Assembly: GCA_030834825.1 (NCBI GenBank)
Contig: JAUQXC010000905.1
Span: 1 to 34,101 of the forward strand
Direction of reading: 5' to 3'
DNA from: Thermoflexales bacterium
Lineage (GTDB): Bacteria > Chloroflexota > Anaerolineae > Fen-1058
DNA: 34,101 bases
The notes under the pieces were generated by a model that saw nothing but the letters and a program-made list of their open reading frames with translations, searched no databases and had not been told where the DNA came from. The translations under genes were made by a program, and so were the position numbers. Within the stretch, counting starts at the first letter, position 1; each line of letters opens with the position of its first letter. Below, in pieces: positions 7,271 to 33,763 of the stretch.

Positions 7271-7275
7271 GGTAC

Positions 7276-8124: not shown

Positions 8125-8159
8125 GAAGTGCCTCCTGTGTGATGTGATCGGCGGGTTTC

Positions 8160-8189
8160 AGTATATAGGCGAGGGAGAAGTCACGTCAA
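8160..8189 (-). promoter_or_regulatory. Promoter of the flavin oxidoreductase operon, with overlapping palindrome
   Basis: On the minus strand TTGACG (8189-8184) is followed after 18 bases by TATACT (8165-8160), or after 16 bases by TATATA (8167-8162). The -35 box is formed by the last codons of the upstream membrane-protein gene. It sits in the perfect 12-base palindrome CGTCAATTGACG (8184-8195), a possible operator. Confidence 0.65.
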
Positions 8190-9101
8190 TTGACGAATGT
8201 CACGAGATGATCGGGTAGGATGCGCTAAAGAATCTGGCGTCAACGCCTCTTTCACGAGGCGAGCGAGATCGAGTTGGTGGTGGCGTCCCCACCAACTGCT
8301 GAACTTGATGAGCAATAGCAGACCAATTACGATGGATACTCTCGACCAGATGGGCCAGATTGGCGCAAAGAATTCAACGACGGCTACTTGACTTACTCCT
8401 AACACTTTCACAATCAGCCATTCCAATCCGGCTACTGGAATGGCCAAGCCAAGCATCGCGAAGATCGACAAGAAAAGTAGATCCAGAGCCGACCAGCGAT
8501 ACCAAGCTTTAATATAGGTTCCGTGTGGGGTGGAGTGAAAGTGGCCATGCAGAACAATGGACACGCCTCTCCAATACCAGTTAGTCGAAGAAGATTGGCT
8601 CATGTCAAAGTGTTGACCGCCCCAGATCAAATTGAAGGTCTTCTTTTTGAGAGAGTCACGCACGATCCAATCGGGCAATGTAAGAAGTTCTTGAATACAT
8701 TCTGATGGAGTTGACCGTGCGAAGCATTCTATATTGGGCTTGCGCCAGGAGTCGAAGAGGAGTGAAAAGATGCCATCTAGCCAGCCATAAGCAGAACCTA
8801 ATTGAGTGGCTCTCATGGTCTTATCGTTTCGCTCGCTACCGCCAACGCCCAATACTATGAGTGTTGCTACCATGACAAATGGCCATGATATAAAAAAGAG
8901 AATACCCTGTGCTCGACTGAACCAATAGACCGGGTAGATCACTTCGGTATAATCACCGTGATTGCCCAAATAGTAATGGCCGGCTTCAATCTTGCCGTTG
9001 AGTCCATCACCTCCTAGCAAAAATGAAGAGATGAAGAACAGTAAAAAGTTCATCATACCCAGGTACATGATGAGTGCGGGCAAACGACGTAGACGCTTCA
9101 T
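8181..9101 (-). CDS. Hypothetical multi-helix membrane protein, AT-richer than its neighbours
   Basis: The 306-residue protein has four or five predicted membrane helices: LIMYLGMMNFLLFFISSFLL near the start, ILFFISWPFVMVATLIVLGV near 90, and a pair in the C-terminal third (LDLLFLSIFAMLGLAIPVAG and IWSRVSIVIGLLLLIKF). Between them is a polar part of about 100 residues: SECIQELLTLPDW, TFNLIWGGQHFDM, then VLHGHFHSTPHGTYIKAWYR leading back into the membrane. This layout recalls a recurring small domain of bacterial membrane proteins but is not assignable to a named family. The ATG at 9101 is preferred because it begins the first helix and lies 13 bases after the upstream stop. Base composition is visibly lower in GC than both flanking genes, suggesting a later arrival. 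Confidence 0.68.
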   Translation of the reverse strand: MKRLRRLPALIMYLGMMNFLLFFISSFLLGGDGLNGKIEAGHYYLGNHGDYTEVIYPVYWFSRAQGILFFISWPFVMVATLIVLGVGGSERNDKTMRATQLGSAYGWLDGIFSLLFDSWRKPNIECFARSTPSECIQELLTLPDWIVRDSLKKKTFNLIWGGQHFDMSQSSSTNWYWRGVSIVLHGHFHSTPHGTYIKAWYRWSALDLLFLSIFAMLGLAIPVAGLEWLIVKVLGVSQVAVVEFFAPIWPIWSRVSIVIGLLLLIKFSSWWGRHHQLDLARLVKEALTPDSLAHPTRSSRDIRQLT

Positions 9102-9114
9102 CTTGACGGCACGC

Positions 9115-13151: not shown

Positions 13152-13925
13152 TTAGTGCGCCGATCGGGCGCAGCGAAAACCGATATAGGGCACGCGGGTG
13201 ACGGGAGCCATATCGCGGCGCAACGAGGTGCGCATCGCCGCATCGAAAACGCCATAACCACCACCCCGCAAGGTCTTCAGCGTGCCGGTTAGCGGACCGG
13301 TTGGATTGTCACGCGGTGAAATGGTGTAGTAATCTTCGTCGTACCAATCGGCCGTCCATTCCCACACGTTGCCGGACATGTTAAAAGCGCCGTAGGGGCT
13401 GACGCCGTCGGGATAGCTATCAACCGCGACGGTGACAAGCTCATTATATGCCGAGTTGACACGCTGCGCATCAAACGTGGCGCCCCACGGAAAATTGCGG
13501 GCGTCCGTGCCGCGCGCGGCCTTTTCCCATTCGGCCTCCGTCGGTAGACGTTTCCCCGCCCACTGGCAGTAACGATCGGCCTCACTCCAAGTGACGTGGG
13601 CCACCGGATAGTTGCTATACTTCGGATTGGTGAAGTAACCGTTGGGATGCCGATCGGTGTAGCCTTCGACTGGCGGCGGGCAGGCTTGAGCCTCAACACA
13701 TTTTTGATAAAGTAAGTTGCTTACTTCGTATTGATCAATCCAGAAGGCGTCGAGATAGATGGGGTGGATCGGTTTTTCATTGGGTAAAACATCACTGCCC
13801 ATGGTGAACTCACCAGCCGGAACCTGGACTAACGGAGCGTGATCGTTTGTCCGGGGCGGGGTGGGGGTTGAACTGCAAGCGACAAACAGCAGAGCCGACA
13901 GGCCAACGCTGATGAGCTTAAGCAT
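13152..13925 (-). CDS. SUMF1/FGE-like domain lipoprotein, lacking the catalytic cysteine pair
   Basis: The predicted product has 257 residues. The N-terminus MLKLISVGLSALLFVACSS carries a lipobox with Cys at residue 17, so it is probably lipid-anchored on the outer face. The SUMF1 (formylglycine-generating enzyme-like) domain fills the rest: VQVPAGEFTMGSDVLPNEKP, FWIDQYEVSNLLYQKCV, YPVAHVTWSEADRYCQWAGK, RLPTEAEWEKAARGTDAR, FNMSGNVWEWTADWYD, LRGGGYGVFDAAMRTSLRR and GFRCARSAH. True formylglycine-generating enzymes have two cysteines shortly after the RGGS motif; here that stretch has none. It should therefore be a non-sulfatase-activating member, possibly a binding or scaffold protein. The ATG at 13925 is chosen for the lipoprotein signal; the Shine-Dalgarno is weak. 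Confidence 0.88.
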   Translation of the reverse strand: MLKLISVGLSALLFVACSSTPTPPRTNDHAPLVQVPAGEFTMGSDVLPNEKPIHPIYLDAFWIDQYEVSNLLYQKCVEAQACPPPVEGYTDRHPNGYFTNPKYSNYPVAHVTWSEADRYCQWAGKRLPTEAEWEKAARGTDARNFPWGATFDAQRVNSAYNELVTVAVDSYPDGVSPYGAFNMSGNVWEWTADWYDEDYYTISPRDNPTGPLTGTLKTLRGGGYGVFDAAMRTSLRRDMAPVTRVPYIGFRCARSAH

Positions 13926-13968
13926 GATCACAGCAGTGCACCTCGTCCAGGTTGGGATTTGTCCAAAC

Positions 13969-13998
13969 AAAAAACGCCCGACGAACCCCGCCGTGCGC
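13969..13998 (-). terminator. Putative terminator after the ComP-like kinase gene
   Basis: Read on the minus strand, a GC-rich imperfect hairpin (CGGCG, loop GGGTT, CGTCG with one G-U pair, plus flanking CGC/GCG) ends in TTTTTT (13974-13969). It lies 27 bases after the kinase stop and 44 bases before the lipoprotein ATG, so it would separate the two transcripts. Confidence 0.5.
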
Positions 13999-14024
13999 TT
14001 CTCAATATCGCTAACAACCAACGA

Positions 14025-17000
14025 CTAACCCGTTGGTTCGTGCTCACCGTTTTCGATGATGGGCATACTGAAAGAGAAAGTGCTGCCCTGCTCCAATTCG
14101 CTTTCCACCCAGATGGCGCCGCCTTGCAGTTCGATCAGGCTCTTGGTGATGGACAGGCCCAGACCGGTGCCGCGCTGCTCGCGCACGGACGGGTTTTGCG
14201 AACGGAAGAACTGCGTAAAGAGCTTGGCCTGATCTTCCGGCGCAATACCAAAGCCGGTGTCTTTCACGGCGCAAGCTAAATAGCCGGCCGGATTGGGTTT
14301 GAGCTGTTGCAAATCGGCGCGGGTCCAGTTGCCGCGTGGCGCCTGGCGTGGTTGAATCTCTTTCAAGTGCGAAACGGTAATGGACATGCTGCCGCCCGTG
14401 GGTGTGTACTTGTACGCATTGCTGACCAGATTGGTGAGAATCTGAATCAAGCGGGCGCGGTCGCCCAAAACGTTGGGCAGCTCGTCGGGCACATTGAGTT
14501 CGACCGTCATCTGCCGCTCGTCGATTTGCGCTTGCAGTGAGCGGATCGTCTCTTCGATGATGGGGCCGAGCGCCACCGGACCCATCTCCATCTTCAAGCG
14601 GCCGGTCTCAATGCGGCCAATATCCAACAGATCTTTAATCAGCGTGTTCAACCGCTCGGCGTTGAACTGCACCGTGGACAGGAACTGCTTCTGCATGTCG
14701 CTGACCGGTCCGGCCATGCCTTTGACCAGCAGGTCGTTGAAGCCCTTGATGGCCGTTACCGGTTGCGCCAATTCATGCGCGACCTCGCTGACGAACTTGC
14801 CCTTGGCATCGTTGGCGCGCTTCACTTCGGCGTATAACTGCGCGTTCGTGATGGCGATGGCGGCGTGGTCGGCCAGACGCGAGGCCGAGTCCAGGTGCAA
14901 AATGCTGAACGTCTCTTTGCGCGAGTTTTCCAGATTAATGACGCCGATCACTTCATTCTCGCGCTTGATGGGCACGCTTAATTGGGCTTTCGTCTCCGGG
15001 CAACCGGCGATGTAACGGTGATCCTGGCTGACATCGTTGACCAGGATGGGTTGTCCCGTGCGGGCGACCTGACCGGCCAGACCCTGATCCAGCGGCAGAG
15101 ATTGTGGCACGTACGTGTAGTTATGCGTGGCCATGAGCATCAGGGAATTGTCTTCGCGGTTGAGCAAGGCGATCGAGCCGGCCTTGGCATCAATCACCCG
15201 CAGGCCCCAATCCAGGGTCAATTCCATCACACGTTTGATGTCGAGCGAGGTGTTTAACTGCCGATCGATTTCCTGCAGCGTGCTTAACTCGTCCAGGCGT
15301 GAAGCCAGGGCCTGATCCGTCATGGTGAACAAGCGGGCGTTATCGACGGCGACGGCGGCGTTGACGGCAAAAGCGGTCAATAGGTTTTGATCATTTTCGT
15401 TAAACGAGTCGGTGCCGCGCTTGTTGATCAATTCGATCACGCCGGTGACTTTGTCCTTGACGATCATTGGCACCGCCAGCAAAGCGCGGGTGCTGAAGGC
15501 GGTGCTCTTGTCCATGTCGCGCAGCCAGCGTGAATCTTGTTGTGCTTCGTTGACGATCTGCGGACGCCGCGTCTGGGCGGCTGCGCCCACAATCCCTTTA
15601 TTCATGGGCATGCGTTGCCCGCGCAAGTCGGGCGCGGCGGGGCCGAGGGTCACTTCGAAGACCAACTCGTTGTGCTGCTCATCCACCAGCAGCAGCGAGC
15701 CTGCTTCGGCGTTGAGCAGTTCCATGGCCTTGGCGACAATGGTTGTCAGCACGGTTCGCAGATCAAGTGTGCTGGTAATGCTGCTGCCCACTTCGTTCAG
15801 TACGGCCAGCTGCCGGGCGCGCTCGGTGGTCTCACGATACAGGCGGCCTTTGTCCAGAACGCTGGCGGCCTGATCGGCAATGGCCGCGAAGATTTGCAGC
15901 TGCTCCGGACTGTACGCCACTTCTTCGCGGAAATCCGAGACGACCATGATGCCCATCGGGACGTTGCCTGCGTTGAGCGGCACCCCCATCCAGGCCCGGC
16001 CGGGTTTGCCCCCGGCGCTCAAGCCGCGCTTCTCGCATTCTTTCACGTAATCGTCGGTGACGATGGGCTGGCCGCGCCGCATGATCTCGCCGCTTAAGCC
16101 GGTATCGATCGGCCATTCGTCGTCGGGATACAACCGCTCGTTGCCTTCCACGTAGAACGCAAAGCGCATCGTGCCGCGCTTGGTGTCGGCCAGGGCCATA
16201 TAAAAGTTGCGGGTATCAATCACGCGGCTGGTCTGGGTATAAATCAATTCCAGAATGTCATCCGGGTCCAGCGTGAAGTTGATGGCCTGGCTGATGCGGC
16301 TCAGCGCATTCAATTCGCTGACGCGCCGTTGCAGGTCATCAAACACGACCGCGCGTTCCAGCGCCAGCGCGGTCTGATTGGTGAGCGAGGTGAGGAAGGC
16401 CAGGTCGTCGGTGGAGTAGATCTGTCCCGTTTGCTTGGGCCCCAGCGCCAGCCAGCCGTTGAGCTGTTGATGTCCGGTGAGCGGAGCATACAAGAACGCG
16501 CCGATCATTTCGATACGTGCTTGATCGGGCAGCAGCAGCTCGGGCAGTGCGTGGTCCGGCTGCAGAAAACGCGTCCCCCCCTCACTGCGCAACCAACGCG
16601 GCAAAGAACTGTCCAGGGGCCATTGGGTGGCAGTCGAAGGCAGGCGCGGCATCGCAGGATCGGGCTGCGCCACGAAGGAATTCATACGGACATCCAGGAG
16701 ATACACGTACAACACATCAGGCCGGAAGTAATCCAGCACTTGTTCACGCAGCGTCTGAACCACCGATGACAGATCGGATAATTCGGTCAGACGGCGGCTG
16801 TAGCTTTGCAGCAAGGCTTGTGTGTCATAGCGGCCCTTGAAGAAGATCCGCTCAATGGCGTGTTCCAGGCGCTGGCGGGGGAGATCGAGCAGCACAACCG
16901 CCAACAGCACAAAGAGCACCGCCAGACCCGGATTGGCAAACAGCGTCTGCGTCGATCCGGCTATCAGTGAGACCAGATAGGCGACGCCGAAATAGATGAC

Positions 17001-18149
17001 CACCACTAACGCGCCCGCGATCACGTATGAAGCGCTGGCGGTCAACAACCGATCGAAGTTCAGCTGGTTATAGCGCAGCATCGCGTACGCGATCGACAGC
17101 GGGAACAAGATCGTGCTGGGCATGTAGAACCAGGGATTGAAAGGCGTCGGATTGAAGAGACTCAAGCCGGCCCAGACCAGGAAAGGCAGGAACGCCAGCG
17201 TCGAACCCCATAAGATAATGCGGCTTTGTTGCAGCACGACGGGCGAATCGGATCTCACGCGCCGATAGATCTGCATGCCGAAGAAGACCGGGAGACTGGC
17301 GGCCATCGCCAGGAGCACCCAACGCTGCCAGGTCACATACGCCCAGGAATCGGTGGCCGTGTATAAGGTGAAGATGGCCAAGCCCGCCAGGACTAATCCC
17401 GGCACATAGACCACAAAACGCAGCAAGGGGTGCCGTTCGATGAGGCGTGATGTCTGGGGGAAGATCAAACTTAAGCTGAGGATGGCGCCACTGGCTGCGC
17501 CGATGGCCAGGAAGGCTGCCCATTGCAAGCGATTTGTCGTTGAACCGTCAAAGTAGGTGGCAAAGATGATGGAGGCGCTTCCGGCAAACAACGCCAGCAC
17601 TTGCGAAGTGCGTTGGTTGCCCCGTTGCCGAAACACCCAAATGGCGATCAGGAGATAGACCAACCCCAAGCCATAAGGTAACGCAAAAAGTGAAACGAAT
17701 TCGTCAGATCCCATCCTGCGCAGACTGCGTGTCGTTTCGCATTGATACACACCCGGCTCGATCATTTCACCACAGGGGCGGGGATCCTGAACAACCGATC
17801 GTTGGTAGGTCAGGCGGACGAACCCCTCTTGACGGGCAGCCGCGTTGATCACCTCTTGATCGTAAGTGAACTGATCTGTCACAGGTGTGTCGTTAATGCG
17901 AACGATATGATCAAGGGCAGCCAGTTGCACTGACGGCCCCCAGTCGCCTGCGCCCGCATCGGACACCAACAGATTCGGTTGGACTAACACGCTGGGAAAC
18001 GGCACTTTCTGGGTCCAATCGATGGCCAGCACCGGCGCGATGATGAACATCGCCGTGGCAGCAAGCAAGACGACAAAAACCACAGGCCAGGTGGCCTTCT
18101 GGCCGATGTCACGGAGTGGAGTCGAAGGAGGCGGCGTAAATGACGCCAT
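14025..18149 (-). CDS. ComP-like membrane/PDZ sensor histidine kinase with four GAF domains
   Basis: The protein has 1374 residues. Helix 1 is at about 21-43, followed by an external loop holding a PDZ-like segment (LAALDHIVRINDTPVTDQF, about 75-95). About nine further helices span 152-425, including PSTILFPLSIAYAMLRYNQ. This layout matches the sensor region of the Bacillus quorum kinase ComP. Four GAF domains follow (about 455-600, 617-769, 780-937 and 955-1102), each ending in an A-x2-N/D-A-x-L-type helix. The kinase core has the H-box FVSEVAHELAQPVTAIKGF with His1125, N-box LVSNAYKYTP, G1 DTGFGIAP and G2 GTGLGLSIT. ELAQPVT replaces the usual ELRTPLT. No response regulator is adjacent. The start lacks a good Shine-Dalgarno sequence. 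A promoter lies at 18255-18227, with a stem-loop in the leader. Confidence 0.9.
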   Translation of the reverse strand: MASFTPPPSTPLRDIGQKATWPVVFVVLLAATAMFIIAPVLAIDWTQKVPFPSVLVQPNLLVSDAGAGDWGPSVQLAALDHIVRINDTPVTDQFTYDQEVINAAARQEGFVRLTYQRSVVQDPRPCGEMIEPGVYQCETTRSLRRMGSDEFVSLFALPYGLGLVYLLIAIWVFRQRGNQRTSQVLALFAGSASIIFATYFDGSTTNRLQWAAFLAIGAASGAILSLSLIFPQTSRLIERHPLLRFVVYVPGLVLAGLAIFTLYTATDSWAYVTWQRWVLLAMAASLPVFFGMQIYRRVRSDSPVVLQQSRIILWGSTLAFLPFLVWAGLSLFNPTPFNPWFYMPSTILFPLSIAYAMLRYNQLNFDRLLTASASYVIAGALVVVIYFGVAYLVSLIAGSTQTLFANPGLAVLFVLLAVVLLDLPRQRLEHAIERIFFKGRYDTQALLQSYSRRLTELSDLSSVVQTLREQVLDYFRPDVLYVYLLDVRMNSFVAQPDPAMPRLPSTATQWPLDSSLPRWLRSEGGTRFLQPDHALPELLLPDQARIEMIGAFLYAPLTGHQQLNGWLALGPKQTGQIYSTDDLAFLTSLTNQTALALERAVVFDDLQRRVSELNALSRISQAINFTLDPDDILELIYTQTSRVIDTRNFYMALADTKRGTMRFAFYVEGNERLYPDDEWPIDTGLSGEIMRRGQPIVTDDYVKECEKRGLSAGGKPGRAWMGVPLNAGNVPMGIMVVSDFREEVAYSPEQLQIFAAIADQAASVLDKGRLYRETTERARQLAVLNEVGSSITSTLDLRTVLTTIVAKAMELLNAEAGSLLLVDEQHNELVFEVTLGPAAPDLRGQRMPMNKGIVGAAAQTRRPQIVNEAQQDSRWLRDMDKSTAFSTRALLAVPMIVKDKVTGVIELINKRGTDSFNENDQNLLTAFAVNAAVAVDNARLFTMTDQALASRLDELSTLQEIDRQLNTSLDIKRVMELTLDWGLRVIDAKAGSIALLNREDNSLMLMATHNYTYVPQSLPLDQGLAGQVARTGQPILVNDVSQDHRYIAGCPETKAQLSVPIKRENEVIGVINLENSRKETFSILHLDSASRLADHAAIAITNAQLYAEVKRANDAKGKFVSEVAHELAQPVTAIKGFNDLLVKGMAGPVSDMQKQFLSTVQFNAERLNTLIKDLLDIGRIETGRLKMEMGPVALGPIIEETIRSLQAQIDERQMTVELNVPDELPNVLGDRARLIQILTNLVSNAYKYTPTGGSMSITVSHLKEIQPRQAPRGNWTRADLQQLKPNPAGYLACAVKDTGFGIAPEDQAKLFTQFFRSQNPSVREQRGTGLGLSITKSLIELQGGAIWVESELEQGSTFSFSMPIIENGEHEPTG

Positions 18150-21807: not shown

Positions 21808-24720
21808 ATGTTTAAAGCAATTGTCGCTAAATTTACCGGTGATCCGGCGCAGCGCACGCTGGCGAAGTATCAGGCCCTGCTGGACGAGGTCAATGCGCTG
21901 GAGCCGGAGTATCGAGCGATGTCCGAGGAAGAGCTGCGTCACCTGACGACGGAGTTCCGCGAGGAACTGCGCGCGAGCGTCAAGGATTTGCGTGAGCGCT
22001 GGGAAGAGGCGCGCGTTGCGGCACAGGCCGAAGACGACGTCGACCAGCGGCGGCAACAGGATTACGGCGTCAAGAAGATCGAGGATGAATATTTCAAGGC
22101 CGTTAATACCGTGCTGGCGGAGCTGATGCCGCAGGCTTTTGCGGCCGTGCGTGAAGCGTCGCAACGCACGATCGGCTTGCGGCACTTCGACGTGCAGCTG
22201 ATCGGCGGCGCCGTGCTGCACGAAGGCAAGATCGCCGAGATGAAGACGGGTGAAGGCAAGACGCTGGTCGCCACCCTGCCATTGTATCTGAATGCGCTGG
22301 CCGGGCATGGCGCGCACCTGATCACCCCCAATGATTATCTGTCCAAGGTCGGCGTGCAGTGGATGGGGCCGATCTACCACGCGCTGGGTTTGACCGTGGG
22401 TGTGATTCAGCACGAGTCGGCGTTTCTCTTCGATCCCACGGTGAAGTCGCAAGATGACCGCTACAACCATCTGCGGCCGGTGCCGCGGCGTGAAGCCTAC
22501 CTGGCCGACATCACTTACGGGACCAACAACGAATTTGGTTTTGACTATCTTCGTGATAATATGGTATGGGAATTGACGCAGTGTGCGCAGCGCGATCTGC
22601 ATTACGCCATTGTTGACGAGGTGGATAACATCCTGGTCGACGAAGCGCGCACACCCTTGATCATCTCCGGCCCGGCGGAAGAGAGCAGCGATCTGTATGT
22701 GCGGTTCTCGGAAGTGGTGCGCCGCTTGCAGCCGTCGAGCGACGACGACGCCGAGGAGCCGGATGGCGACTACGTCATCGAACACAAAACGCGCAACGTC
22801 ACGTTGACCGAACGCGGCATCGAGAAGATCGAGCGGATCCTGGGCGTGGAGAATCTGTACGAGACGCAGTACTTCGAGTGGATTCCGTATCTCGATAATG
22901 CGTTGCGCGCCAACGTGATCTACAAGCGCGACAAGGACTATATCGTCAAAGAAGGGCAGGTCATCATTGTCGACGAGTTCACCGGTCGTTTGATGTATGG
23001 CCGCCGTTACAGCGAAGGTCTACACCAGGCGATTGAGGCGAAAGAAGGCGTCGACGTTCAACGCGAGAGCCTGACCTACGCCACCATCACGTTTCAGAAC
23101 TATTTCCGCATGTACCGTAAACTGGCGGGCATGACCGGCACGGCCAAGACGGAAGAGGAAGAATTTCAGAAGATCTATAATCTGGATGTGGTGATTATTC
23201 CCACCCATCGCCCCATGGTGCGGGTGGATAACTCGGATATGATCTTCAAGACACAGGCGGGCAAGTTCAAGTCCGTGGTGGACGAAGTGGCGGAGCTGAA
23301 CGAGCAGGGGCGTCCGGTGTTGCTCGGCACGGTCGCGATCGAGACCAGTGAAATGTTGTCCGGCATGTTGAAGCGGCGTGGCGTTCCTCACAATGTCTTG
23401 AATGCGAAAGAACACGAAAAAGAAGCGACCTACATCGCGCAGGCGGGCCGCTCGGGTGCGGTCACCGTCGCTACGAACATGGCCGGGCGCGGAGTGGACA
23501 TTCTGCTGGGGGGCAACCCGGAAGGCATTGCGCGCGAAATCCTGCGCAAGAAGGGTGTCGATCTGACAGAGGTTCCACCGGAGGAGTGGGACGCGGCCTA
23601 TGCGGAAGCGAAGAAGCAGGCGGAGGCCGATCGGGAAAAAGTGGTGACGCTGGGTGGGCTGCATATCATCGGCACTGAGCGGCACGAGTCGCGCCGCATC
23701 GACAATCAGTTGCGCGGGCGCGCGGGCCGGCAGGGCGATCCGGGATCGAGCCGCTTCTACGTTTCGATCGAAGACGAGTTGATGCGGCGCTTCGCCGGCG
23801 ATCGCATTAAGAGCGTGATGGAATGGGCCAAGTTCGATGACGATCAGCCGCTGGAACATTCGCTGCTGAGCAAGTCGATCGAGCAGGCGCAGGTGCGGGT
23901 GGAAGGCTACAACTTCGACATCCGCAAGCACGTGCTGGAATATGACGATGTGGTCAACACGCAGCGCAATGTCATCTACGCGCAGCGCCGCAAGATCTTG
24001 AGCGAGAAGAATCTAAAGCCCATCATCGTCGACATGATCGCCGATGAGGTTCACGCCCTGGTGGCGCAGCATACCCTCGGCCCGCTTGACGATTACGATC
24101 TGAGCAGTTTGATGCTCGCGGCGCGGGGACTGATTCCCCTGCCGGCCAGCCTGACGCCGGAGGATTGGCGCGATCTGAAGCCGGATGTGATTGAAGAACA
24201 GTTGACGGAGTACGCCGCGCAGGCGTATGCGGAGAAAGAAAAGCAACTGGGCGACGTGATGCCGCAGGCCGAGCGCATTACGTTGCTGCGCGCGGTTGAC
24301 AATCATTGGGTGCGGCATTTGACCGATCTGGATACGCTGCGCGAAGGGATTGGCCTGCGCGCTTTCGGGCAGCAGAATCCCGTGGTGGCGTACAAGCGCG
24401 AAGCCGCCGAAACATACGACGATATGCTGACTTCCATTCGCAGCCAGGTTGCGCGCGATATCTATCGGGTGCAGCCGGCCCAATCGGCGCCGCCGCCGCA
24501 ACCCAGGCGGCTCAGCACCAATGCGCCGAGCAGTAGTGGCAGGGGCCGCCAGCCGGTACGCAAGGTGGCGGACGAAGTGGTGGGCCGCAACGATCCTTGC
24601 CCGTGCGGTAGTGGAAAGAAGTATAAACATTGCCACGGTGCGTCGGGGGCAGCCCCGTTGCCGGGCGGTAAGACCGGCAGCGGCGCCAAGATTGGCGCAC
24701 CTCCCAAGCAGCGAAAATGA
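21808..24720 (+). CDS. secA: Preprotein translocase ATPase SecA
   Basis: The 970-residue motor drives proteins through SecYEG at the membrane. RHFDVQLIGGAVLHEGKIAE leads into the Walker A motif MKTGEGKTLVATL (from residue 145). ITPNDYLSKV, GTNNEFGFDYLRDNM and DEVDNILVDEARTPLIISG (Walker B) follow. Later come the preprotein crosslinking region (YVIEHKTRNVTLTERGIEK), AGMTGTAKTEEEEF, NMAGRGVDILLGG and GGLHIIGTERHESRRIDNQL. The C-terminal zinc site CPCGSGKKYKHCHG is present, followed by a Gly/Pro/Lys-rich tail of about 26 residues. Walker A sits about 43 residues further in than in E. coli SecA (102), owing to a charged helical insertion at about residues 60-105. The stop overlaps the next ATG (ATGA). 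Confidence 0.97.
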   Translation: MFKAIVAKFTGDPAQRTLAKYQALLDEVNALEPEYRAMSEEELRHLTTEFREELRASVKDLRERWEEARVAAQAEDDVDQRRQQDYGVKKIEDEYFKAVNTVLAELMPQAFAAVREASQRTIGLRHFDVQLIGGAVLHEGKIAEMKTGEGKTLVATLPLYLNALAGHGAHLITPNDYLSKVGVQWMGPIYHALGLTVGVIQHESAFLFDPTVKSQDDRYNHLRPVPRREAYLADITYGTNNEFGFDYLRDNMVWELTQCAQRDLHYAIVDEVDNILVDEARTPLIISGPAEESSDLYVRFSEVVRRLQPSSDDDAEEPDGDYVIEHKTRNVTLTERGIEKIERILGVENLYETQYFEWIPYLDNALRANVIYKRDKDYIVKEGQVIIVDEFTGRLMYGRRYSEGLHQAIEAKEGVDVQRESLTYATITFQNYFRMYRKLAGMTGTAKTEEEEFQKIYNLDVVIIPTHRPMVRVDNSDMIFKTQAGKFKSVVDEVAELNEQGRPVLLGTVAIETSEMLSGMLKRRGVPHNVLNAKEHEKEATYIAQAGRSGAVTVATNMAGRGVDILLGGNPEGIAREILRKKGVDLTEVPPEEWDAAYAEAKKQAEADREKVVTLGGLHIIGTERHESRRIDNQLRGRAGRQGDPGSSRFYVSIEDELMRRFAGDRIKSVMEWAKFDDDQPLEHSLLSKSIEQAQVRVEGYNFDIRKHVLEYDDVVNTQRNVIYAQRRKILSEKNLKPIIVDMIADEVHALVAQHTLGPLDDYDLSSLMLAARGLIPLPASLTPEDWRDLKPDVIEEQLTEYAAQAYAEKEKQLGDVMPQAERITLLRAVDNHWVRHLTDLDTLREGIGLRAFGQQNPVVAYKREAAETYDDMLTSIRSQVARDIYRVQPAQSAPPPQPRRLSTNAPSSSGRGRQPVRKVADEVVGRNDPCPCGSGKKYKHCHGASGAAPLPGGKTGSGAKIGAPPKQRK

Positions 24721-26000: not shown

Positions 26001-26294
26001 ATGAGTATGGTGATTGTGAATGATGTCCTGTTGTTGATTGCCTGGGGTGTCGTCTGTGTGTTGCTGGTGGTCCTCTATCGCATCGCCCGCTTCTATCAGG
26101 TCACCTCGGGACGCCTTTCGCGTTACCGCTGGTTTAGCGTGCCGTTGGTGCTGCTCGCCGGCGCGGTCGTGACCGATGTCTTTATTGTGGGCGGCCCCAG
26201 CTGGGTCGGCGATGTGCTGTTGCTCTTGGGCGGCGCCAGCCTGATCGGGTTGGGCTATAATCTCCTGCGTTTGATGACCGGGAGCCGATCGTGA
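26001..26294 (+). CDS. Small membrane protein, first of a related pair
   Basis: The 97-residue protein has three predicted membrane helices: VLLLIAWGVVCVLLVVLY (about 9-26), SVPLVLLAGAVVTDVFIVGG (about 46-65) and VGDVLLLLGGASLIGLGYNL (about 69-88). A short polar loop RIARFYQVTSGRLSRYRW lies after the first. No family is recognised. The RYRW segment and the V-x-LVLL...xD pattern recur in the next gene, so the two look like diverged duplicates. It starts 8 bases after the KaiC-like ATPase stop, and its own TGA overlaps the next GTG. It could anchor or link the ATPase to the membrane; that is an inference from order. Confidence 0.78.
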   Translation: MSMVIVNDVLLLIAWGVVCVLLVVLYRIARFYQVTSGRLSRYRWFSVPLVLLAGAVVTDVFIVGGPSWVGDVLLLLGGASLIGLGYNLLRLMTGSRS

Positions 26295-26629
26295 CGATCT
26301 TGACGATACCGGCCGCGCTGGCGGCCTACCTCGCGATTCTATATCTGTTGTACATTTTTGCGATGCTCAGTCGCAAACTGGGTGCCGTGACAAAAATGAA
26401 GCCGTACTATCGCTGGTTGTATGTGGCGCTGGCCCTGGTCCTCCTCTCATCCGTCTGCGATTGGATCGTACTGAGCGCGCCCACCGTGCCAGAGGCGGCC
26501 TCCGATTTGATCTTGAGTGAGTGGTTTTATCTGGTGGGTCATACCGTGCCGCTGGTGGCCGCGGCGATTCTGGCGCTCATCATTGTATTGCGTTACTGGG
26601 GCTGGCTGTTCCGGGAGCATGATCGGTGA
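26291..26629 (+). CDS. Small membrane protein, second of a related pair
   Basis: The protein has 112 residues and three predicted helices: LAAYLAILYLLYIFAML (about 9-25), LYVALALVLLSSVCDWIVLS (about 43-62) and VGHTVPLVAAAILALIIVLR (about 82-101). The second helix is preceded by KMKPYYRW, which aligns with the RLSRYRW of its neighbour. A loop APTVPEAASDLILSEW, absent from the neighbour, separates helices 2 and 3. The start is GTG 26291 (GTGA junction, GGGAG about 6 bases upstream) and the stop again overlaps a GTG, that of the giant kinase. Such tight coupling on both sides argues that the product acts together with the kinase. Confidence 0.78.
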   Translation: MTILTIPAALAAYLAILYLLYIFAMLSRKLGAVTKMKPYYRWLYVALALVLLSSVCDWIVLSAPTVPEAASDLILSEWFYLVGHTVPLVAAAILALIIVLRYWGWLFREHDR

Positions 26630-29600
26630 GAGACGTTAAGCGGCCCGCGCGCACACGAGCGACCTCGGCAGCCCCGCCGCCAATCGAGGCTGAGTCGTTC
26701 TTGTTTGCGCATGCTGGCCCGACCCTGGTGCTCGACCGACAGGGGCGAGTGCTGGCGGCTAACGCCTCAGCCATGCAGCTGTTGGGTGTCGCTGGGCCAG
26801 ATCTCCGTCAATCACCCTCCTTTGCAGGTTTCCTCGAGAGCAGCTCGCACTCACGCTGGCAGGAGTTGTTGCGCCAGATCGCCGTCAAGCGCGCCGAGGC
26901 GCGCGGCCTGCTCGATCTGACTCCACTCCTTCCCTCCCCCGGCGAGGCCGTCCTGGGTGCCCGCCGTGTCGAATTTGCCGGACGTCCCATTATTCAAGAG
27001 CGGCGCGTGGCGGCGATCCAGATCGTGCTGCGCCCCGTGAATGCTTCGGAAGCCGATCGCTTGCTGGTGCGCCAGGAGCGCACGACAGCCGCTCTGCAAC
27101 AAGTGATGACGGTGGTCAATTCCACGCTGGATTTGAATGCGGTCCTCAATGCCATCATCGATCGGCTGTGGGATGTCGTGCCCTACGACAGCGCTTCGCT
27201 CTTACTCAACGAACAGGGCCGCTATCGGCTGGTCATGACGCGCGGCCTGGCCGAGCCGCTGGAAGCTGCCCTGGCTGAGCAGGTGAATGATCTGCCCACC
27301 ATCCGTTCATTGCTGCAAGCTCGGGGGCCGATCTACATTCCCGATACGCATTCGGATCCACGCTGGTTGGGCATGATCGACAATAGCCCTGTTCGTTGTT
27401 GGTTGGGACTGCCGTTGTTCAGCCGTCGCCAGGATGAAATTCTGGGCATTTTGAATGTCGATAATTACCGGCCCGACGTCTACAGTTCGGAAGACATCCA
27501 GATGGCTTATGCGTTTTCGACGCAGGCGGCGGCGGCGATTGAGAATGCTCGCCTGCACGTTGAAGTGCGACGCCGCGCCGACCATATGGCGGCGCTCAAC
27601 AGCGTCTCGGCTACCGTCAGCCAGTCGCTTGATTTGGAAACAACCCTGAACACCGCTTTGGATAAAGCGCTGGAGGTGGTGGGTTTTGAAGCCGGTGCGA
27701 TCAGTCTGGTGGATGAAGAAGCGCAGGATTTGAGCATCCGCGTGCACCGGGGGTGGCGGCAGCAGGACCTGGCCAGCAACATGCACCTGCGCCTGGGACA
27801 GGGCCTGTCGGGCCAGGCCGTGGTCACGGGCGAAGTGATTGTGACGGGCAGCTTGGAGAATGAGTCACGTCTGGCGGTGCCGCAGGTGCGACAAGAAGGC
27901 GTGCAAGCCATGGCCCTGGCCCCGATGCGGGCGCGCGGGCGTGTGGTGGGCGTGCTGGGCGTCATGAGCTACGAACCGCGCACCATTGCCCCGCAGTCGA
28001 TCAACGTCATCCGATCCATCGCCGATCAGATCGGGGTGGCCATTGACAACGCCCAGCTGTTTGCGCGCGTGACGCGCCGCTCGCAGCAATTGGCGTTGCT
28101 GAATGAAGTGGCGCGTGACGTGCTGGCCACCCTGGATATGTCCGAACGCTTCCGACGCATCACACACTTGATCGGCGAGAAGTTCGGTTACGATTCGGTA
28201 AGTGTCTTCATGGTCGATCTTGAACGCCGGGATCTGGTGTTGCGTTCCAGTGCCGGCGGCAAAGCGCAGCAGCTGGGTCAACGTCAGATCCGCCAGCCCC
28301 TGGCCGAAGGTCTGGTCGGCTATGCGGCGCGCACGGGCGAGATCGTCAACGTGCCGGACGTCAGTCAAGATCCGCGCTACGTGGCCCACGTTGAGGCGGC
28401 GCTCGATCGCACTCGATCGGAACTGGCTGTGCCCATGAAGCGCGGCGCTGACGTGGTGGGTGTACTCGACATCGAGCACACCGAGCCGCAGGCTTTTTCG
28501 GCAGAAGATGCCGACATCCTGCGGTCGCTGGCCGACATGCTGTTGATCGCCATCAATAACGGCGCGCTCTATGATCAAGCCAGTCAGCGTGTCGCCGAGC
28601 TGACGGCCTTGCAAGAGGTGAGCCTGCGTGTGACGGCCTCGCTCGATCTCTGGTCGGTGTTGGACACCATCGCGCAAAATGCCCTGGCGCTCATCCAGTC
28701 TGACTATACCCACATCTTCCTCTACGATCCCGATAAGAATGAATTGGTGTTCGGCGCCGCGCTGCGCAAAGACGGCATGCGCGAACCTCGCGTGCCCTAC
28801 GCCGAATCAGAAGATCTCACCTGGCACGTCTTCCGGCAAGGCCAACCGGTGGTGATTAACGATGTCAGCCACGATCCGGTGTATCGCCAAAACTTGAACG
28901 TCGCCTCGATCGCGGCGTTTCCGCTCAAGCGCCCGGATGGGGTCATCGGCGTCTTTACCATGTCTTTCCTGGAGCAGCATACCTTCACCGCCGATGACAT
29001 CCGCGTGTTGACGCTGCTCTCAGATCTGGCGGCGATCGCCGTCAGCAATGCCCGGTTGTTTGAGCAGACCAAACGCCAGCTGGAAGAAATCCGCACGTTG
29101 CACGAACTGTCCCTGGCGGCCACGGCCTCGCTGGATTTTGAATTAGTTACACGGCACACCGTTGAAGCTTTGCAGCGTTCGCTGGGGTTCGAGTACATCG
29201 GCTTGTTCCTCGTCAACGACGAAGGCGACTACGCGCACCTCTTCGCCACATCCAGCCTGCAAGCCGAATATGAGCGTAATCGCTTTATCAAAGTCGGCGC
29301 CGGCATCGTGGGTTGGGCGATTGCGCAGGGTCTGCTGATCAATGTGCCGGACGTGCTGCAAGACCCGCGCCATCTGCCGGGGATCTCCTCCACCCGATCG
29401 GAACTCTGTGTCCCCTTGCGTGTGGGCGAGCGCATCATCGGCGCCATCGATGTGCAGAGTCCACGGGTCAATGCTTTTACCGCCAGCGACGAGCGCTTGT
29501 TGATGACCATCGCTGGTCAGTGGGCCGTCATCCTGGAAAACACCAAGCTGTTTGCCGCCGAACGTCTGCGCCGCGAACAACTGGAACGCCTGCAATCCAG

Positions 29601-31833
29601 CGCCGCGGCGATTGCCGCCGAGCTAGACTTGAATACTCTGCTCGACCTCATCGTGCAGGAAGCCACGCGCACGTTTAACGCACCAGCCGCCAGTCTGCTG
29701 CTCTTGAATCCCGTCGACCAGCTGCTGCGCATCCGGGCCAGTCGGGGACTGTCCGCGAATTTTGTGCCTCAGCTCCGCATCAAGCCGGAACGGCTGGGTT
29801 GGATCGCCGATGCCACGGGCCGGGGCCTGAAGGGCGAGTCGCAGTTGGTCGTCGATTTACGCGCCATGGAGGCGAGCGAGGAGCACCACCAGCTCTTTGA
29901 AGCGGAAGATTTGTGCAGCTTGATGCGCGTGCCCATTGTCAGCCGCGGCCGGTTGATTGGCGCGTTGGATGTGTACAGCCGATCGGTTCCACGCCGTTTC
30001 CGCGAAGATGAAGTCGATCTGGCCGAGATCTTTACCAGCCAGGCGGCGGTGGCGATCGAGAATGCGCAGCTGCTGGAAGAGACGCGCCGCCGCCTAGCTG
30101 AGATCTCGATCTTGTTTGAAGCGGCCCGCGCCGGGACCTCTTCGTTGGACATGGGCCAGGTGCTCGATCGGGTCCTGGAAGTGATCCGGCGTAGCCTGCG
30201 CTTTGAAACGTTTGAGCTCATTCTGTTTGATGCTGACACGAAGCTGTTGTATGCACGCGCGGGTTATGGCTTTGACCCGCACCCCCCCGATTTACCCATG
30301 CAGCTGGGTGAGGGCATCGTCGGGTGGGTCGCCCAGATGCGCCAGTCGCTGCTGGTCAACGACGTACAGCAGGATGCGCGTTATCGGCCCGTGGTGGACC
30401 AGACCCAATCGGAACTGGCCGTGCCCTTGCTGGCCGCCGATCGGCTGGTGGGCGTGATGAACGTCGAAAGTTCGCGCCTCAATGCGTTCACACCGGACGA
30501 TGAGCGACTATTGCAGACTTTAGCCGGCCAGCTGGCTGCGCTCATCGAGAATGCCCGACTGCATGAAGAGACGCAGCAGCGTCTGGCGGAAGTGTCAACC
30601 CTGTATGCTTTTGCCGAACAGCTAACCACCAGCATCGATCTGCCCACGTTGCTGGATTCGATCGTGGTGACGTTGAAAGGGGTGCTGCATTGCCGCGGCG
30701 TCAGCATTTCTCTGCTGAACCCTGAAACGCAGATGTTGGAGATTCGCGCGGCGGCCGGCTTGCAGCCGAAGTGGCGGCAGGCCGCTAAACTCAAAGTGGG
30801 TGAAGGCATCAGCGGCAAGGTGGCAGCGACGGCTGCGCCCATCTATGTGCCCGATGCCAGCAGTTTGCCCGACTTCATTTTCTTTGATCCGGTGGTGCGC
30901 TCGCTGCTGGTGGTGCCGCTCATGGTGAAAGATCGTGTCATCGGCACCCTGGCGATCGATCAAAATATCCCGGACGCGTTCAGCCAGGACGATGAGCGCA
31001 CCTTGACCATCGCGGCAGCACAAGCCGCCGCCGCGATCGAGAACGCGCAGTTGTATACCGATTTGGAAGAGCGCGCCGCCAAATTGGAGCAAGCCTATAA
31101 AGAGCTGCAGGAAGTGGACCAGCTCAAGGACGAGCTGGTGCAGAATGTCTCGCACGAACTGCGCACTCCTTTGACGTTTATCAAGGGCTATGTCGAATTG
31201 CTGTTGGAAGAGGACATGGGCGCACTCAACGAGGCCCAGCGCGAGAGCCTGACCATTGTGGCTGACAAGACCAATGCCTTGACGCGCCTGGTGAGTGACA
31301 TCATTTACTTGCAGCAGGTCGAGTGGGAGTCATTGCAGTTCAGCCAACAGGACATGCGCGACATGGCGCGCCTGGCCCTGCAGAGCTGCGAGATTGCCGC
31401 TATGACGTCGGGAATTTTCCTGCGCTTGGACGCAGACGCCGATCTGTCGCCAATTCCTGTCGATCGTGATCGCATCAATCAGGTATTTGACAACCTGCTG
31501 GGGAATGCCATCAAATTCAGCCCGCGCGGCGGCACCATCTCCATTGAAGTGAAAAACGCAGGCGAAATGATCCAGCTGGGTGTGCTGGATACCGGCGTGG
31601 GAATTCCCATCGATAAGCTGGAGAAAGTGTTCGATCGGTTTTATCAAGTGGACGGCTCGGCGACGCGCCGCTTTGGTGGAGCAGGGTTGGGCCTGGCCAT
31701 CGCCCGCCGGATTGTGGAGGCGCACGGGGGGCGCATTTGGGTGGAAAGCCAAGTGGGCTCAGGCAGTGCTTTCAAATTCACCCTACCCAAGACCCAGCCT
31801 CAACGCCGGCCCGCCACGGTTCGCATCAGTTAG
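26626..31833 (+). CDS. Giant PAS + 8xGAF sensor histidine kinase
   Basis: The 1735-residue protein appears soluble. A PAS domain lies at about 22-130 (LFAHAGPTLVLDRQGRVLAA). Eight GAF domains follow at about 160-305, 323-473, 489-643, 659-806, 824-971, 989-1144, 1160-1307 and 1323-1470. Each opens with a conserved S/T-x-LDL-type helix start and closes with an A-x-x-N-A-x-L-type helix. A coiled coil (EERAAKLEQAYKELQEVDQL) leads to the kinase core: H-box VQNVSHELRTPLTFIKGY with His1510, N-box DNLLGNAIKFSP, G1 LDTGVGIP, F-box KVFDRFYQ and G2 GGAGLGLAIA. All catalytic motifs are intact. The GTG start overlaps the upstream stop, with GGGAG 8 bases before it. No receiver protein is in the cluster. 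The GAF ligands are unknown; eight in a row is unusually many. Confidence 0.93.
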   Translation: MRDVKRPARTRATSAAPPPIEAESFLFAHAGPTLVLDRQGRVLAANASAMQLLGVAGPDLRQSPSFAGFLESSSHSRWQELLRQIAVKRAEARGLLDLTPLLPSPGEAVLGARRVEFAGRPIIQERRVAAIQIVLRPVNASEADRLLVRQERTTAALQQVMTVVNSTLDLNAVLNAIIDRLWDVVPYDSASLLLNEQGRYRLVMTRGLAEPLEAALAEQVNDLPTIRSLLQARGPIYIPDTHSDPRWLGMIDNSPVRCWLGLPLFSRRQDEILGILNVDNYRPDVYSSEDIQMAYAFSTQAAAAIENARLHVEVRRRADHMAALNSVSATVSQSLDLETTLNTALDKALEVVGFEAGAISLVDEEAQDLSIRVHRGWRQQDLASNMHLRLGQGLSGQAVVTGEVIVTGSLENESRLAVPQVRQEGVQAMALAPMRARGRVVGVLGVMSYEPRTIAPQSINVIRSIADQIGVAIDNAQLFARVTRRSQQLALLNEVARDVLATLDMSERFRRITHLIGEKFGYDSVSVFMVDLERRDLVLRSSAGGKAQQLGQRQIRQPLAEGLVGYAARTGEIVNVPDVSQDPRYVAHVEAALDRTRSELAVPMKRGADVVGVLDIEHTEPQAFSAEDADILRSLADMLLIAINNGALYDQASQRVAELTALQEVSLRVTASLDLWSVLDTIAQNALALIQSDYTHIFLYDPDKNELVFGAALRKDGMREPRVPYAESEDLTWHVFRQGQPVVINDVSHDPVYRQNLNVASIAAFPLKRPDGVIGVFTMSFLEQHTFTADDIRVLTLLSDLAAIAVSNARLFEQTKRQLEEIRTLHELSLAATASLDFELVTRHTVEALQRSLGFEYIGLFLVNDEGDYAHLFATSSLQAEYERNRFIKVGAGIVGWAIAQGLLINVPDVLQDPRHLPGISSTRSELCVPLRVGERIIGAIDVQSPRVNAFTASDERLLMTIAGQWAVILENTKLFAAERLRREQLERLQSSAAAIAAELDLNTLLDLIVQEATRTFNAPAASLLLLNPVDQLLRIRASRGLSANFVPQLRIKPERLGWIADATGRGLKGESQLVVDLRAMEASEEHHQLFEAEDLCSLMRVPIVSRGRLIGALDVYSRSVPRRFREDEVDLAEIFTSQAAVAIENAQLLEETRRRLAEISILFEAARAGTSSLDMGQVLDRVLEVIRRSLRFETFELILFDADTKLLYARAGYGFDPHPPDLPMQLGEGIVGWVAQMRQSLLVNDVQQDARYRPVVDQTQSELAVPLLAADRLVGVMNVESSRLNAFTPDDERLLQTLAGQLAALIENARLHEETQQRLAEVSTLYAFAEQLTTSIDLPTLLDSIVVTLKGVLHCRGVSISLLNPETQMLEIRAAAGLQPKWRQAAKLKVGEGISGKVAATAAPIYVPDASSLPDFIFFDPVVRSLLVVPLMVKDRVIGTLAIDQNIPDAFSQDDERTLTIAAAQAAAAIENAQLYTDLEERAAKLEQAYKELQEVDQLKDELVQNVSHELRTPLTFIKGYVELLLEEDMGALNEAQRESLTIVADKTNALTRLVSDIIYLQQVEWESLQFSQQDMRDMARLALQSCEIAAMTSGIFLRLDADADLSPIPVDRDRINQVFDNLLGNAIKFSPRGGTISIEVKNAGEMIQLGVLDTGVGIPIDKLEKVFDRFYQVDGSATRRFGGAGLGLAIARRIVEAHGGRIWVESQVGSGSAFKFTLPKTQPQRRPATVRIS

Positions 31834-31913: not shown

Positions 31914-32984
31914 ATGGTCACGACACCATCCCGCACGATGCCCAGATCGACCCTTGAATTGAGGCGGCTGTTGCATGCACTGCCCAAGGTCGATCTGCAT
32001 CGCCATCTGGAAGGATCGCTGCGGTTGGAGACGCTGGCCGAGATCGCGCAGGAGCACGGCATTGATCTGCCCAGCTACAACATTGAGCAGCTGCGGCCCT
32101 ACGTGCAGTTCACCGACGAACAACCGGGCTTTCACCGCTTTCTAGAGAAGTTCAAATTACTGCGCCGCTTTTACACGACGCGTGAAGCCGTCCGGCGGGT
32201 GGCGTATGAAGCGGTGGTGGACGCGGCCTCAGACAATGTGAAGTATCTGGAGCTGCGCTTCAGCCCCTCGGCGCTGGCCCATGCCCAAAGTTTTCCGTTG
32301 CACGAAGTGACAGAGTGGGTGATTGAGGCGGTGGCGCAGGCCGAGTCGGAGACCGGCGTCATCGCACGCCTGCTGTGTGCCGTTGTGCGCCACGATAGCT
32401 TCGATCTGGCACGGCAGGTGATCGAAGTCGCCCTGGCCTATCGAGATCGCGGCATCGTCGGCGTCGATCTGACCGGCGACGAGGTCCATTATCCAGCGGC
32501 GCCGTTTGCCTCGTTATTCAAGCACGCGGCGGATCATGGTCTGGGGATCACCATCCATGCTGGCGAAGCCGGTGGCGCCGAGAATGTGCGTGAAGCCGTG
32601 GAAGTCATGCACGCGCAGCGCATCGGACACGGCATTCGATCGATTGAAGATTCCAATGTGGTGCAGCTGCTGCGGCAGCGCGGCGTGACGCTGGAGATTT
32701 GTCCCACCAGCAATTTACAGACGGGGGTGGTGGACAACTTCGGCCTGCATCCGCTGCGCGATCTCTACGTGATGGGCGTGAATGTAACCGTCAACACAGA
32801 CGATCCGAGCGTGTCCGATACCAGCCTGACCGACGAATACATGGTGGCAATGATGGGCCTGGGCGTGAAGCTGCGCGATCTGCGGGTCTGCACCCGCAAC
32901 TCGATTCGCGCGGCCTTCCTGCCACCGGAGGACAAACAGCGGCTGGAGACGTTGATCTTAAGCGAGTTTGACGCGTGGTTGTAA
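31914..32984 (+). CDS. add: Adenosine deaminase
   Basis: The predicted product has 356 residues and a TIM-barrel metal site that converts adenosine to inosine in purine salvage. The zinc-binding HxH is in LPKVDLHRHLEGSLR. Residues GDEVHYP, TIHAGEAGGAENVREAVEVM (His and Glu), RIGHGIRSIED (His), EICPTSNLQTG and VTVNTDDPSVSDTSL (catalytic Asp pair) complete the set. Length is normal. ATG 31914 is chosen because GGAG lies just upstream (3-base spacing) and earlier in-frame codons extend into non-homologous sequence; ATG 31938 is an alternative. The gene follows the giant kinase after 80 bases and is followed directly by the bidirectional terminator. Aminodeoxyfutalosine deaminases and adenine deaminases belong to the same superfamily and are less likely. 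Confidence 0.92.
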   Translation: MVTTPSRTMPRSTLELRRLLHALPKVDLHRHLEGSLRLETLAEIAQEHGIDLPSYNIEQLRPYVQFTDEQPGFHRFLEKFKLLRRFYTTREAVRRVAYEAVVDAASDNVKYLELRFSPSALAHAQSFPLHEVTEWVIEAVAQAESETGVIARLLCAVVRHDSFDLARQVIEVALAYRDRGIVGVDLTGDEVHYPAAPFASLFKHAADHGLGITIHAGEAGGAENVREAVEVMHAQRIGHGIRSIEDSNVVQLLRQRGVTLEICPTSNLQTGVVDNFGLHPLRDLYVMGVNVTVNTDDPSVSDTSLTDEYMVAMMGLGVKLRDLRVCTRNSIRAAFLPPEDKQRLETLILSEFDAWL

Positions 32985-32988
32985 CAGA

Positions 32989-33026
32989 AAAAGCGCGGGC
33001 CGGTTTCATCACCGGCCCGCGCTTTT
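32989..33026. terminator. Bidirectional rho-independent terminator between convergent genes
   Basis: AAAAGCGCGGGCCGGT (32989-33004) and its exact reverse complement (33011-33026) form a 16-bp stem with the loop TTCATC. The A-run on the left and the TTTT on the right give a U-tract to transcripts from both sides. It serves adenosine deaminase (+) and the membrane-anchored protein gene (-), whose stop codon overlaps the last base. Confidence 0.88.
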
Positions 33027-33763
33027 CAGGCGGAGCGTTCCCATTCCAGAATAGCGGCCTTGAGCACTCCGCGAATGATCAGGTCGGGCACTTCGTCGGC
33101 GTGTTGATAAAACTTCCGATCGACTTCGATCAGCATACTTCCATCGGCTGCGGCGCCCACATGAATTCTACGGTCGACGAACTCCGGGTAGCGCAGTAAG
33201 TTGTGCTGCAGAATTTTTTCAATTTGGTCGAGAATGGTGTTGGGCGGCGCCGGCCGCAGAGAAGTTGAGATGGGGGTGCTGCTTTTTGTCATCGCCTGGG
33301 CCACGCTCGGTTCGATGTAGGCCACGGGCACGGCTGGCGGCGCTGCCGCGCTCTCAACGGGCGGTGCTTTCAATTCAGGTTTGACAATGGGAATGGTTCC
33401 AGCAAAGCGCTGCAGGCCACTCAATGCTTCCAGTACCTTGTTCGCAGCGCGGTCATCGTGAATGTCTTTCAAGTTAAAGTACTGCATGCCATTCACTTCG
33501 ACCAGCCATTCGCCCGACACGGGATCACGCCGGACGAGGATGGCATCGGCCGGGACATAGGTGGCGGGGGTGCGGGTCAGGGCCTTCCCGGCGGTACCCG
33601 CCAGTCCCTTCACCCACTCCGGCGCGGGTTTGTCATCGGCGACAGCTTCATGGGCCATAGGCGTTTTAGTGCGCTGCCGCAGCATCAAGACCACGCCGAG
33701 CAACAAAAACAGCAGGGCAACGCCGATGATCGCCACAACTGGAATAAAACGCTCAACCGTCAT
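33026..33763 (-). CDS. Membrane-anchored protein of unknown function
   Basis: The protein has 245 residues. One N-terminal helix (FIPVVAIIGVALLFLLLGVVLML, about 6-28) is followed by a soluble part on one side of the membrane. Residues about 75-120 form a small domain (AILVRRDPVSGEWLVEVNGM, NLKDIHDDRAANKVLEALSG). A Pro/Ala-rich linker (about 125-175) leads to a second domain (ILDQIEKILQHNLLRYPEFV, GSMLIEVDRKFYQHADEVPD, ending KAAILEWERS). I recognise the two-domain pattern from other Chloroflexota proteins but know no function. It lies 15 bases downstream of mutM and is probably co-transcribed with it. ATG 33763 begins the anchor directly. Confidence 0.78.
   Translation of the reverse strand: MTVERFIPVVAIIGVALLFLLLGVVLMLRQRTKTPMAHEAVADDKPAPEWVKGLAGTAGKALTRTPATYVPADAILVRRDPVSGEWLVEVNGMQYFNLKDIHDDRAANKVLEALSGLQRFAGTIPIVKPELKAPPVESAAAPPAVPVAYIEPSVAQAMTKSSTPISTSLRPAPPNTILDQIEKILQHNLLRYPEFVDRRIHVGAAADGSMLIEVDRKFYQHADEVPDLIIRGVLKAAILEWERSA

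Follow-up and report, generated by a model that had tools for sequence, protein, structure and literature searches.

We examined a window of 34,101 nucleotides (the whole stretch of DNA analysed, positions 1 to 34,101 of the forward strand of contig JAUQXC010000905.1, assembly GCA_030834825.1, from a Thermoflexales bacterium of the Anaerolineae, Chloroflexota), and in it a gene for a soluble histidine kinase in which a PAS domain and eight GAF domains precede the HisKA and HATPase_c domains. The kinase gene is preceded by genes for SecA, a winged-helix protein (wH), a KaiC-like ATPase and two small membrane proteins, here called TM1 and TM2, and is followed by the gene for an adenosine deaminase-like protein (Ada) (Table 1). 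Four-base overlaps join SecA to wH, TM1 to TM2 and TM2 to the kinase.

Table 1. Genes of the locus and domains of the kinase, in window positions.
Feature	Position	Strand	Remarks
SecA	21808..24720	+	upstream neighbour in most loci with KaiC
wH, winged-helix protein, 146 aa	24717..25157	+	without Pfam match; model similar to ArsR/MarR regulators
KaiC-like single-domain ATPase, 253 aa	25231..25992	+	Pfam PF06745, 174.6 bits; PDB sequence match to KaiC
TM1, small membrane protein	26001..26294	+	conserved at the locus; hydropathy 2.67
TM2, small membrane protein	26291..26629	+	conserved at the locus; hydropathy 2.46; stop overlaps kinase start
PAS-(GAF)8-HisKA-HATPase soluble histidine kinase, 1,735 aa	26626..31833	+	GTG start, 4-base overlap with TM2 stop
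PAS, N-terminal, residues 32-104	26719..26937	+	Pfam PAS_4, 25.3 bits (cut-off 23.1)
GAF unit 1, residues 161-310	27106..27555	+	48-68% to positional orthologues
GAF unit 2, residues 328-478	27607..28059	+	strongly conserved, 77-88% to positional orthologues
GAF unit 3, residues 496-648	28111..28569	+	46-66% to positional orthologues
GAF unit 4, residues 666-811	28621..29058	+	51-69% to positional orthologues
GAF unit 5, residues 829-975	29110..29550	+	conserved, 64-86%; Cys928 invariant in 5/5 family members
GAF unit 6, residues 993-1149	29602..30072	+	missing from sister genus (G002, G004)
GAF unit 7, residues 1167-1312	30124..30561	+	56-69% to positional orthologues
GAF unit 8, kinase-proximal, residues 1330-1476	30613..31053	+	conserved, 78-88%; carries Cys1356
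HisKA, residues 1501-1565	31126..31320	+	H box SHELRTPL from 1509, 33 positions past unit 8 end
HATPase_c, residues 1613-1723	31462..31794	+	N, G1, F, G2 boxes
Ada, adenosine deaminase-like protein, downstream boundary gene	31914..32984	+	start uncertain; listed open reading frame from 31737

The eight GAF domains that a first-pass annotation had read from the sequence are all recognised by Pfam. The models GAF_2 (PF13185, 469 bits), GAF (PF01590, 433.7 bits) and GAF_3 (PF13492, 275.3 bits) each match eight stretches, and every one of the eight places singly exceeds the GAF_2 cut-off (50.0-80.3 bits versus 28.6), so that the count does not fall below eight; the unit boundaries were set by a purpose-built GAF profile. 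The kinase core is likewise complete, as had been claimed, with HisKA and HATPase_c both present and the H, N, G1, F and G2 boxes of a HisKA-type kinase found. No membrane helix was detected in the kinase: its top 19-residue hydropathy windows (1.70, 1.67 and 1.65) slightly exceed the threshold of 1.6 applied to TM1 and TM2, and they sit inside the cores of GAF units 5 and 8. The N-terminal PAS domain had been overlooked. A repeat of about 165 residues holds only approximately, the start-to-start spacing being 163-174 residues; the constant part is the linker, which measures 17 residues in all seven cases. The window's genome has 150 GAF_2 matches, and its next-largest array, over 15 other contigs, has seven GAFs. 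Relatives carry single frames with 9, 10, 12 and 15 GAFs (G and L numbers denote genomes and locus records), and the frame with 15 (L096, G035), which extends past the end of its contig, counts here as a GAF frame and only putatively as a kinase. The window encodes another multi-GAF histidine kinase (14025-18149, minus strand), which has four GAFs; its gene adjoins one for an FGE-sulfatase-domain protein (13152-14021).

The linker length recurs well beyond this protein. Both ends were covered in 264 of 283 adjacent GAF pairs (19 were dropped), and before near-copies were removed 224 of the 264 linkers were 17 residues long. The 145 distinct linkers of the lineage measured 17 (117 linkers), 24 (8), 31 (2), 21 (6), 42 (1), 16 (8) and 18, 22 or 23 residues (1 each), which places 127 of them at 17, 24 or 31, and the GAF cores that they join span 126-170 residues; many of these kinases and linkers share descent, so the counts are not independent events, and the profile's own edges could sharpen the regularity. 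From the GAF end to the H box the distance is 32 residues in 32 of 39 distinct kinases, 25 in four, and 18, 11 and 43 in one each, so that 38 of the 39 fall in one class modulo seven. Linker length is held constant along the array.

A single-chain AlphaFold2 model of residues 829-1735, built on a 31-row alignment, reached a mean predicted local distance difference test (pLDDT) of 81.2 and a predicted template modelling (pTM) score of 0.39. Its GAFs are joined by predicted unbroken helices 46, 45 and 46 residues long, and a further one of 74 residues runs into the DHp helices. The top structural match of a two-GAF segment was PDE5A GAF-A/B (Z 25.9, 325 residues, 3.9 Å), single units matched the GAFs of PtsP, and sequence matches to the PDB fell on 1ykd and PDE5 chains. 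The signaling helix (S-helix) is described, in the accessible text of PMC1592074, as a helix of about 40 residues with a central ERT signature. The linkers, the heptad-class H-box spacing and the unbroken predicted helices fit a dimer stacked along a single coiled-coil spine; together with the likeness to the PDE5A tandem, they favour the first-pass suggestion of stacked dimer contacts, in an indirect manner.

Cyclic-nucleotide and bilin signatures had been proposed as pointers to ligands. The NKFDE motif was found in none of the 38 mapped units of five same-family proteins, and an NKFDE-like, slightly different pattern occurs in 2 of the 389 units in all loci scanned. Only two cysteines are invariant in the family, Cys928 (unit 5) and Cys1356 (unit 8), the latter at least 90% conserved in the 31-row alignment. 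Neither appears to stand at the usual position of the chromophore cysteine in bilin-binding GAFs of phytochromes and cyanobacteriochromes. At a guess, Cys1356 could have a redox role.

The order SecA-wH-KaiC-TM1-TM2 is conserved, with the kinase optional behind TM2. The ATPase belongs to the KaiC-family P-loop ATPases by its PF06745 match and its Walker A motif, GAPGTGKS. The Ser/Thr phosphorylation sites of clock KaiC lie in the STITD stretch of CII. When the ATPase is aligned to 8zn5, these positions are occupied by Ala and Phe. We therefore rejected clock KaiC as an identity for this protein, given the replaced residues and the one PF06745 stretch in 253 aa in place of two RecA-like domains; archaellum ArlH was also rejected, scoring 42.2 bits versus 204.7 for the best KaiC model in NCBIfam (both below their own cut-offs). 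Neither KaiA nor KaiB was matched among the window open reading frames searched with Pfam, and TM1 and TM2 had no Pfam match above cut-off. L179 (G000:C196), L180, L181 and L182 represent a different KaiC-like family, with roughly 45-53% identity in the four genomes concerned, and neither TM1 nor TM2 was detected beside the four copies examined. Near the Ada gene lies a 245-aa reading frame (33026-33763, minus strand) with no Pfam or NCBIfam match; G001 and G003 have counterparts of it (60% and 48% identical) near their own adenosine deaminase genes. Elsewhere in the window, a member of the C_GCAxxG_C_C redox-protein family (4545-4994, minus strand) adjoins a glyoxalase-fold gene.

KaiC was matched with an E value no worse than 1e-30 in 72 of 298 genomes of the class, and the 57 in which a match reached at least 57% identity over nearly the whole protein form the locus set. 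G091, whose 81% match at the end of a contig covers only 72 residues, was excluded; its record (L235) reads TM1-TM2-4 GAF frame-Ada. A script reading of the 57 genomes found TM2 followed by a kinase or GAF frame in 28 and directly by the adenosine deaminase gene in 18, and left 11 unassigned; by eye, G275 joins the kinase group and G013 the deaminase group, and G003, G010 and G016 have contig breaks with the kinase on another contig. Twenty-two of the 28 frames are complete, the window's included, and hold 0 (1 frame), 2 (3), 3 (8), 4 (4), 5 (1), 7 (3) or 8 (2) GAFs, eight being the top count among complete frames that follow TM2. From these frames we read the array as elastic, whole units being gained and lost at one chromosomal locus. 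The 0-GAF kinase (G062) has HisKA and HATPase_c, with a core at most 41% identical to the locus cores, and is only a candidate orthologue of the locus kinases. In L070 (G014, 5370-11229) the kinase appears as two overlapping frames, one with 8 GAFs and then one with 1 GAF plus the core.

A tree of the kinase cores gathers 31 of 32 locus kinases in one clade (support 0.946), which also includes one G013 kinase from elsewhere in that genome; G054 falls outside. Other kinases are present in all 19 genomes read as having no locus kinase. Searched with unit 8 plus core, these genomes gave full-length matches of at best 46-47% identity, in G293, G013 and G284, the remaining full-length ones being at 41% or less among the matches listed; in G250 a frame aligns with unit 8 at 56% over 153 residues and with the core at 39%. 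Relatives of the kinase at displaced positions are therefore found in at least three of these genomes.

We put it at somewhat better than an even chance that the eight GAFs stack along one phase-locked coiled-coil spine in a parallel dimer, that this spine feeds the DHp helices, and that a conserved membrane module of KaiC-like ATPase, TM1 and TM2 has the kinase behind it as an optional plug-in sensor. Each GAF would be a station where binding of a ligand or partner could alter the spine's torque or register; the summed shifts would reach the DHp helices and set the autophosphorylation of His1510, and the target would be a response regulator encoded elsewhere. The linkers would keep the helical phase, whole units could be added or removed with the signal intact, and the array could therefore lengthen and shorten in evolution.

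Several observations weigh against this proposal. Eighteen of the 145 distinct linkers lie outside the main length class, one of the 39 kinases has a GAF-to-H-box distance of 43, and a motif-only count made without the profile is looser, with 35 of 48 at one distance. The pTM score makes the relative placement of domains unreliable, and the model is of a single chain, not a dimer. According to the accessible text of PMC1592074, the prokaryotic inter-GAF coiled coils known at that time were antiparallel. By the script reading 18 of the 57 genomes have no kinase behind TM2, and in G049 (a nine-GAF kinase in one frame) and G014 it lies between SecA and Ada with no KaiC beside it; the kinase is therefore not obligatory to KaiC. 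The antiparallel precedent and the displaced relatives lowered our confidence.

The same genomes bear on the alternative that the kinase is independent of its neighbours, having been inserted by chance into a conserved SecA-wH-KaiC-TM1-TM2-Ada order, which we regard as a serious but doubtful possibility. It would account for the 18 genomes with no kinase behind TM2, for G049 and G014, and for the close relative located elsewhere in G013, whose KaiC locus has no kinase (as also in G293 and G284, and perhaps in G250). It accords poorly, however, with the four-base overlap between TM2 and the kinase, with the single core-tree clade that unites nearly all locus kinases, and with the sensor kinase that stands behind TM2 in three archaeal loci described below.

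Comparison of the units bears on a further alternative, which we consider unlikely: that the array serves chiefly as a structural spacer or scaffold, that most of its units have no binding partner and only units 2, 5 and 8 sense or dock, and that its length is under neutral drift. In four same-family proteins each unit finds a single clear counterpart at its own position (46-88% identity), except that unit 6 has none in G002 and G004; G001 belongs to the genus of the window genome, and G002 and G004 to its sister genus. Units 2, 5 and 8 evolve most slowly, at 64-88% in same-family orthologues versus 46-71% for units 1, 3, 4, 6 and 7, as a spacer would predict, and the dispensable unit 6, the range of 0-8 units in complete frames at one locus and the missing NKFDE motif point the same way. 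Yet all eight places still exceed the GAF_2 cut-off, positional identity is kept across genera, and relatives of the internal units recur in another family (G008). A period-of-three rule for the conserved units was dropped, being post hoc and upset by the change in spacing after unit 6 loss.

A recent tandem duplication in this lineage, one version of the origin raised in the first-pass annotation, is highly improbable even though the process itself exists in a relative, G035, with four neighbouring GAFs 65-74% identical, because units of the kinase are 19-39% identical to one another, neighbours are no closer than the others (mean identity 25.8% versus 26.2%, 7 and 21 pairs, permutation 0.59), and each unit is closer to its counterparts at the same position, across genera, than to the other units of the array. 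In G035 itself, units 2-5 of L096 (G035:C37, at least 15 GAFs) are the mutually similar ones, and L100 (G035:C326, at least 12 GAFs) has three copies in their place, a sign of probable recent tandem gain or loss in that genome.

Older changes can be traced for single units. G003 carries an additional unit ahead of unit 1, nearest to unit 2 (46%), in a frame open at the contig end and hence with at least nine GAFs. Since G003 branches outside G002 plus G000/G001 in the core tree (support 0.808) and yet has unit 6, loss of unit 6 in the genus of G002 and G004 appears a simpler reading than separate gains. The 17-residue linker of G002 and G004 resembles the unit 5-6 linker over about its first third and the unit 6-7 linker over the remainder; this chimeric look is as expected if a whole unit was removed in register, and an insertion would give the same trace. 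In G008, units like 2 and 6 lie on one contig and units like 4, 3, 4, 5 (weak) and 8 on another, and internal units were therefore also shuffled. Across families the units next to the kinase core group in a single clade (0.99), which leaves out the last units of G054, G231 and G059.

The closest known parallels share parts of this arrangement. The tandem-GAF phosphodiesterases PDE5A and PDE2A and the CyaB2-type cyanobacterial adenylate cyclase also carry serial GAFs on long helices, but they have two GAFs and a cyclic-nucleotide enzyme as output, whereas the protein described here has eight GAFs, a kinase output and no NKFDE motif that we could find. Heptad-constrained sensor-effector linkers are reported for LOV and phytochrome photoreceptors in the accessible text of PMC6798134 and PMC9587094, as in the present array; those proteins have one or few sensors with bilin or flavin, whereas here the rule repeats along a GAF chain in which no chromophore signature was recognised. 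Archaeal cytoplasmic multi-PAS/GAF histidine kinases are also soluble and hold several such domains, but the available portion of PMC5847659 describes no comparable array, locus or linker rule. A KaiC-family ATPase gene beside a kinase is likewise known for SasA and for the kinase of the Rhodobacter sphaeroides kaiBC operon (available text of PMC5520375). Unlike those systems, the ATPase here has a single RecA-like domain with replaced phosphorylation-site residues, and two membrane proteins stand between it and the kinase.

The ATPase and the membrane proteins also occur together outside the class. Scanning named genome contigs yielded 41 loci, 12 of them outside Anaerolineae/Thermoflexia/Chloroflexi, and TM1 and TM2 stand beside KaiC in four of the 12 (three Methanosarcinales and one Chitinivibrionia); they were not seen at the other eight, which include two Methanosarcinaceae records. 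In the Methanosarcinales loci (L229, L231 and L233) KaiC has two domains, and behind it come TM1 (44-48 bits), TM2 (60-68 bits) and a histidine kinase of dCache-HAMP-PAS architecture. In the Chitinivibrionia locus (L225, 6980-8397), KaiC, TM1 (19.5 bits) and TM2 (35.0 bits) are followed by an AMP-binding fragment and not by a kinase; the best shuffled controls scored 13.4 with the TM1 profile and 6.7 with the TM2 profile. The three archaeal kinases are few and related (75-87% identical in the core), and among the matches listed their cores are at best 44.2% identical to a locus core versus 39.1% to the best non-locus core, which makes them no more than candidate sisters of the locus cores. No description of this KaiC-TM1-TM2 cluster was found in the accessible open-licence literature on KaiC in Anaerolineae, nor any report of Chloroflexi histidine kinases with multiple GAF domains in the open-licence literature, and an archaeal KaiC-TM-kinase arrangement may have been mentioned earlier. 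We suggest, quite tentatively, that KaiC-like ATPase, TM1 and TM2 make up a membrane-attached signalling module, so far undescribed, of Anaerolineae and some Methanosarcinales with an interchangeable kinase slot behind TM2, the slot holding in Anaerolineae a phase-locked GAF array tuned by gain and loss of whole units.

The findings point to a conserved KaiC-like ATPase/membrane-protein module beside sensor kinases in one bacterial class and some archaea. Related kinases at a single locus have from none to nine or more sensor domains, which makes it possible to test within one family how their number and the linker phase affect signalling, and the interchangeable-slot module, if true, would be a natural experiment on sensor number versus kinase control.

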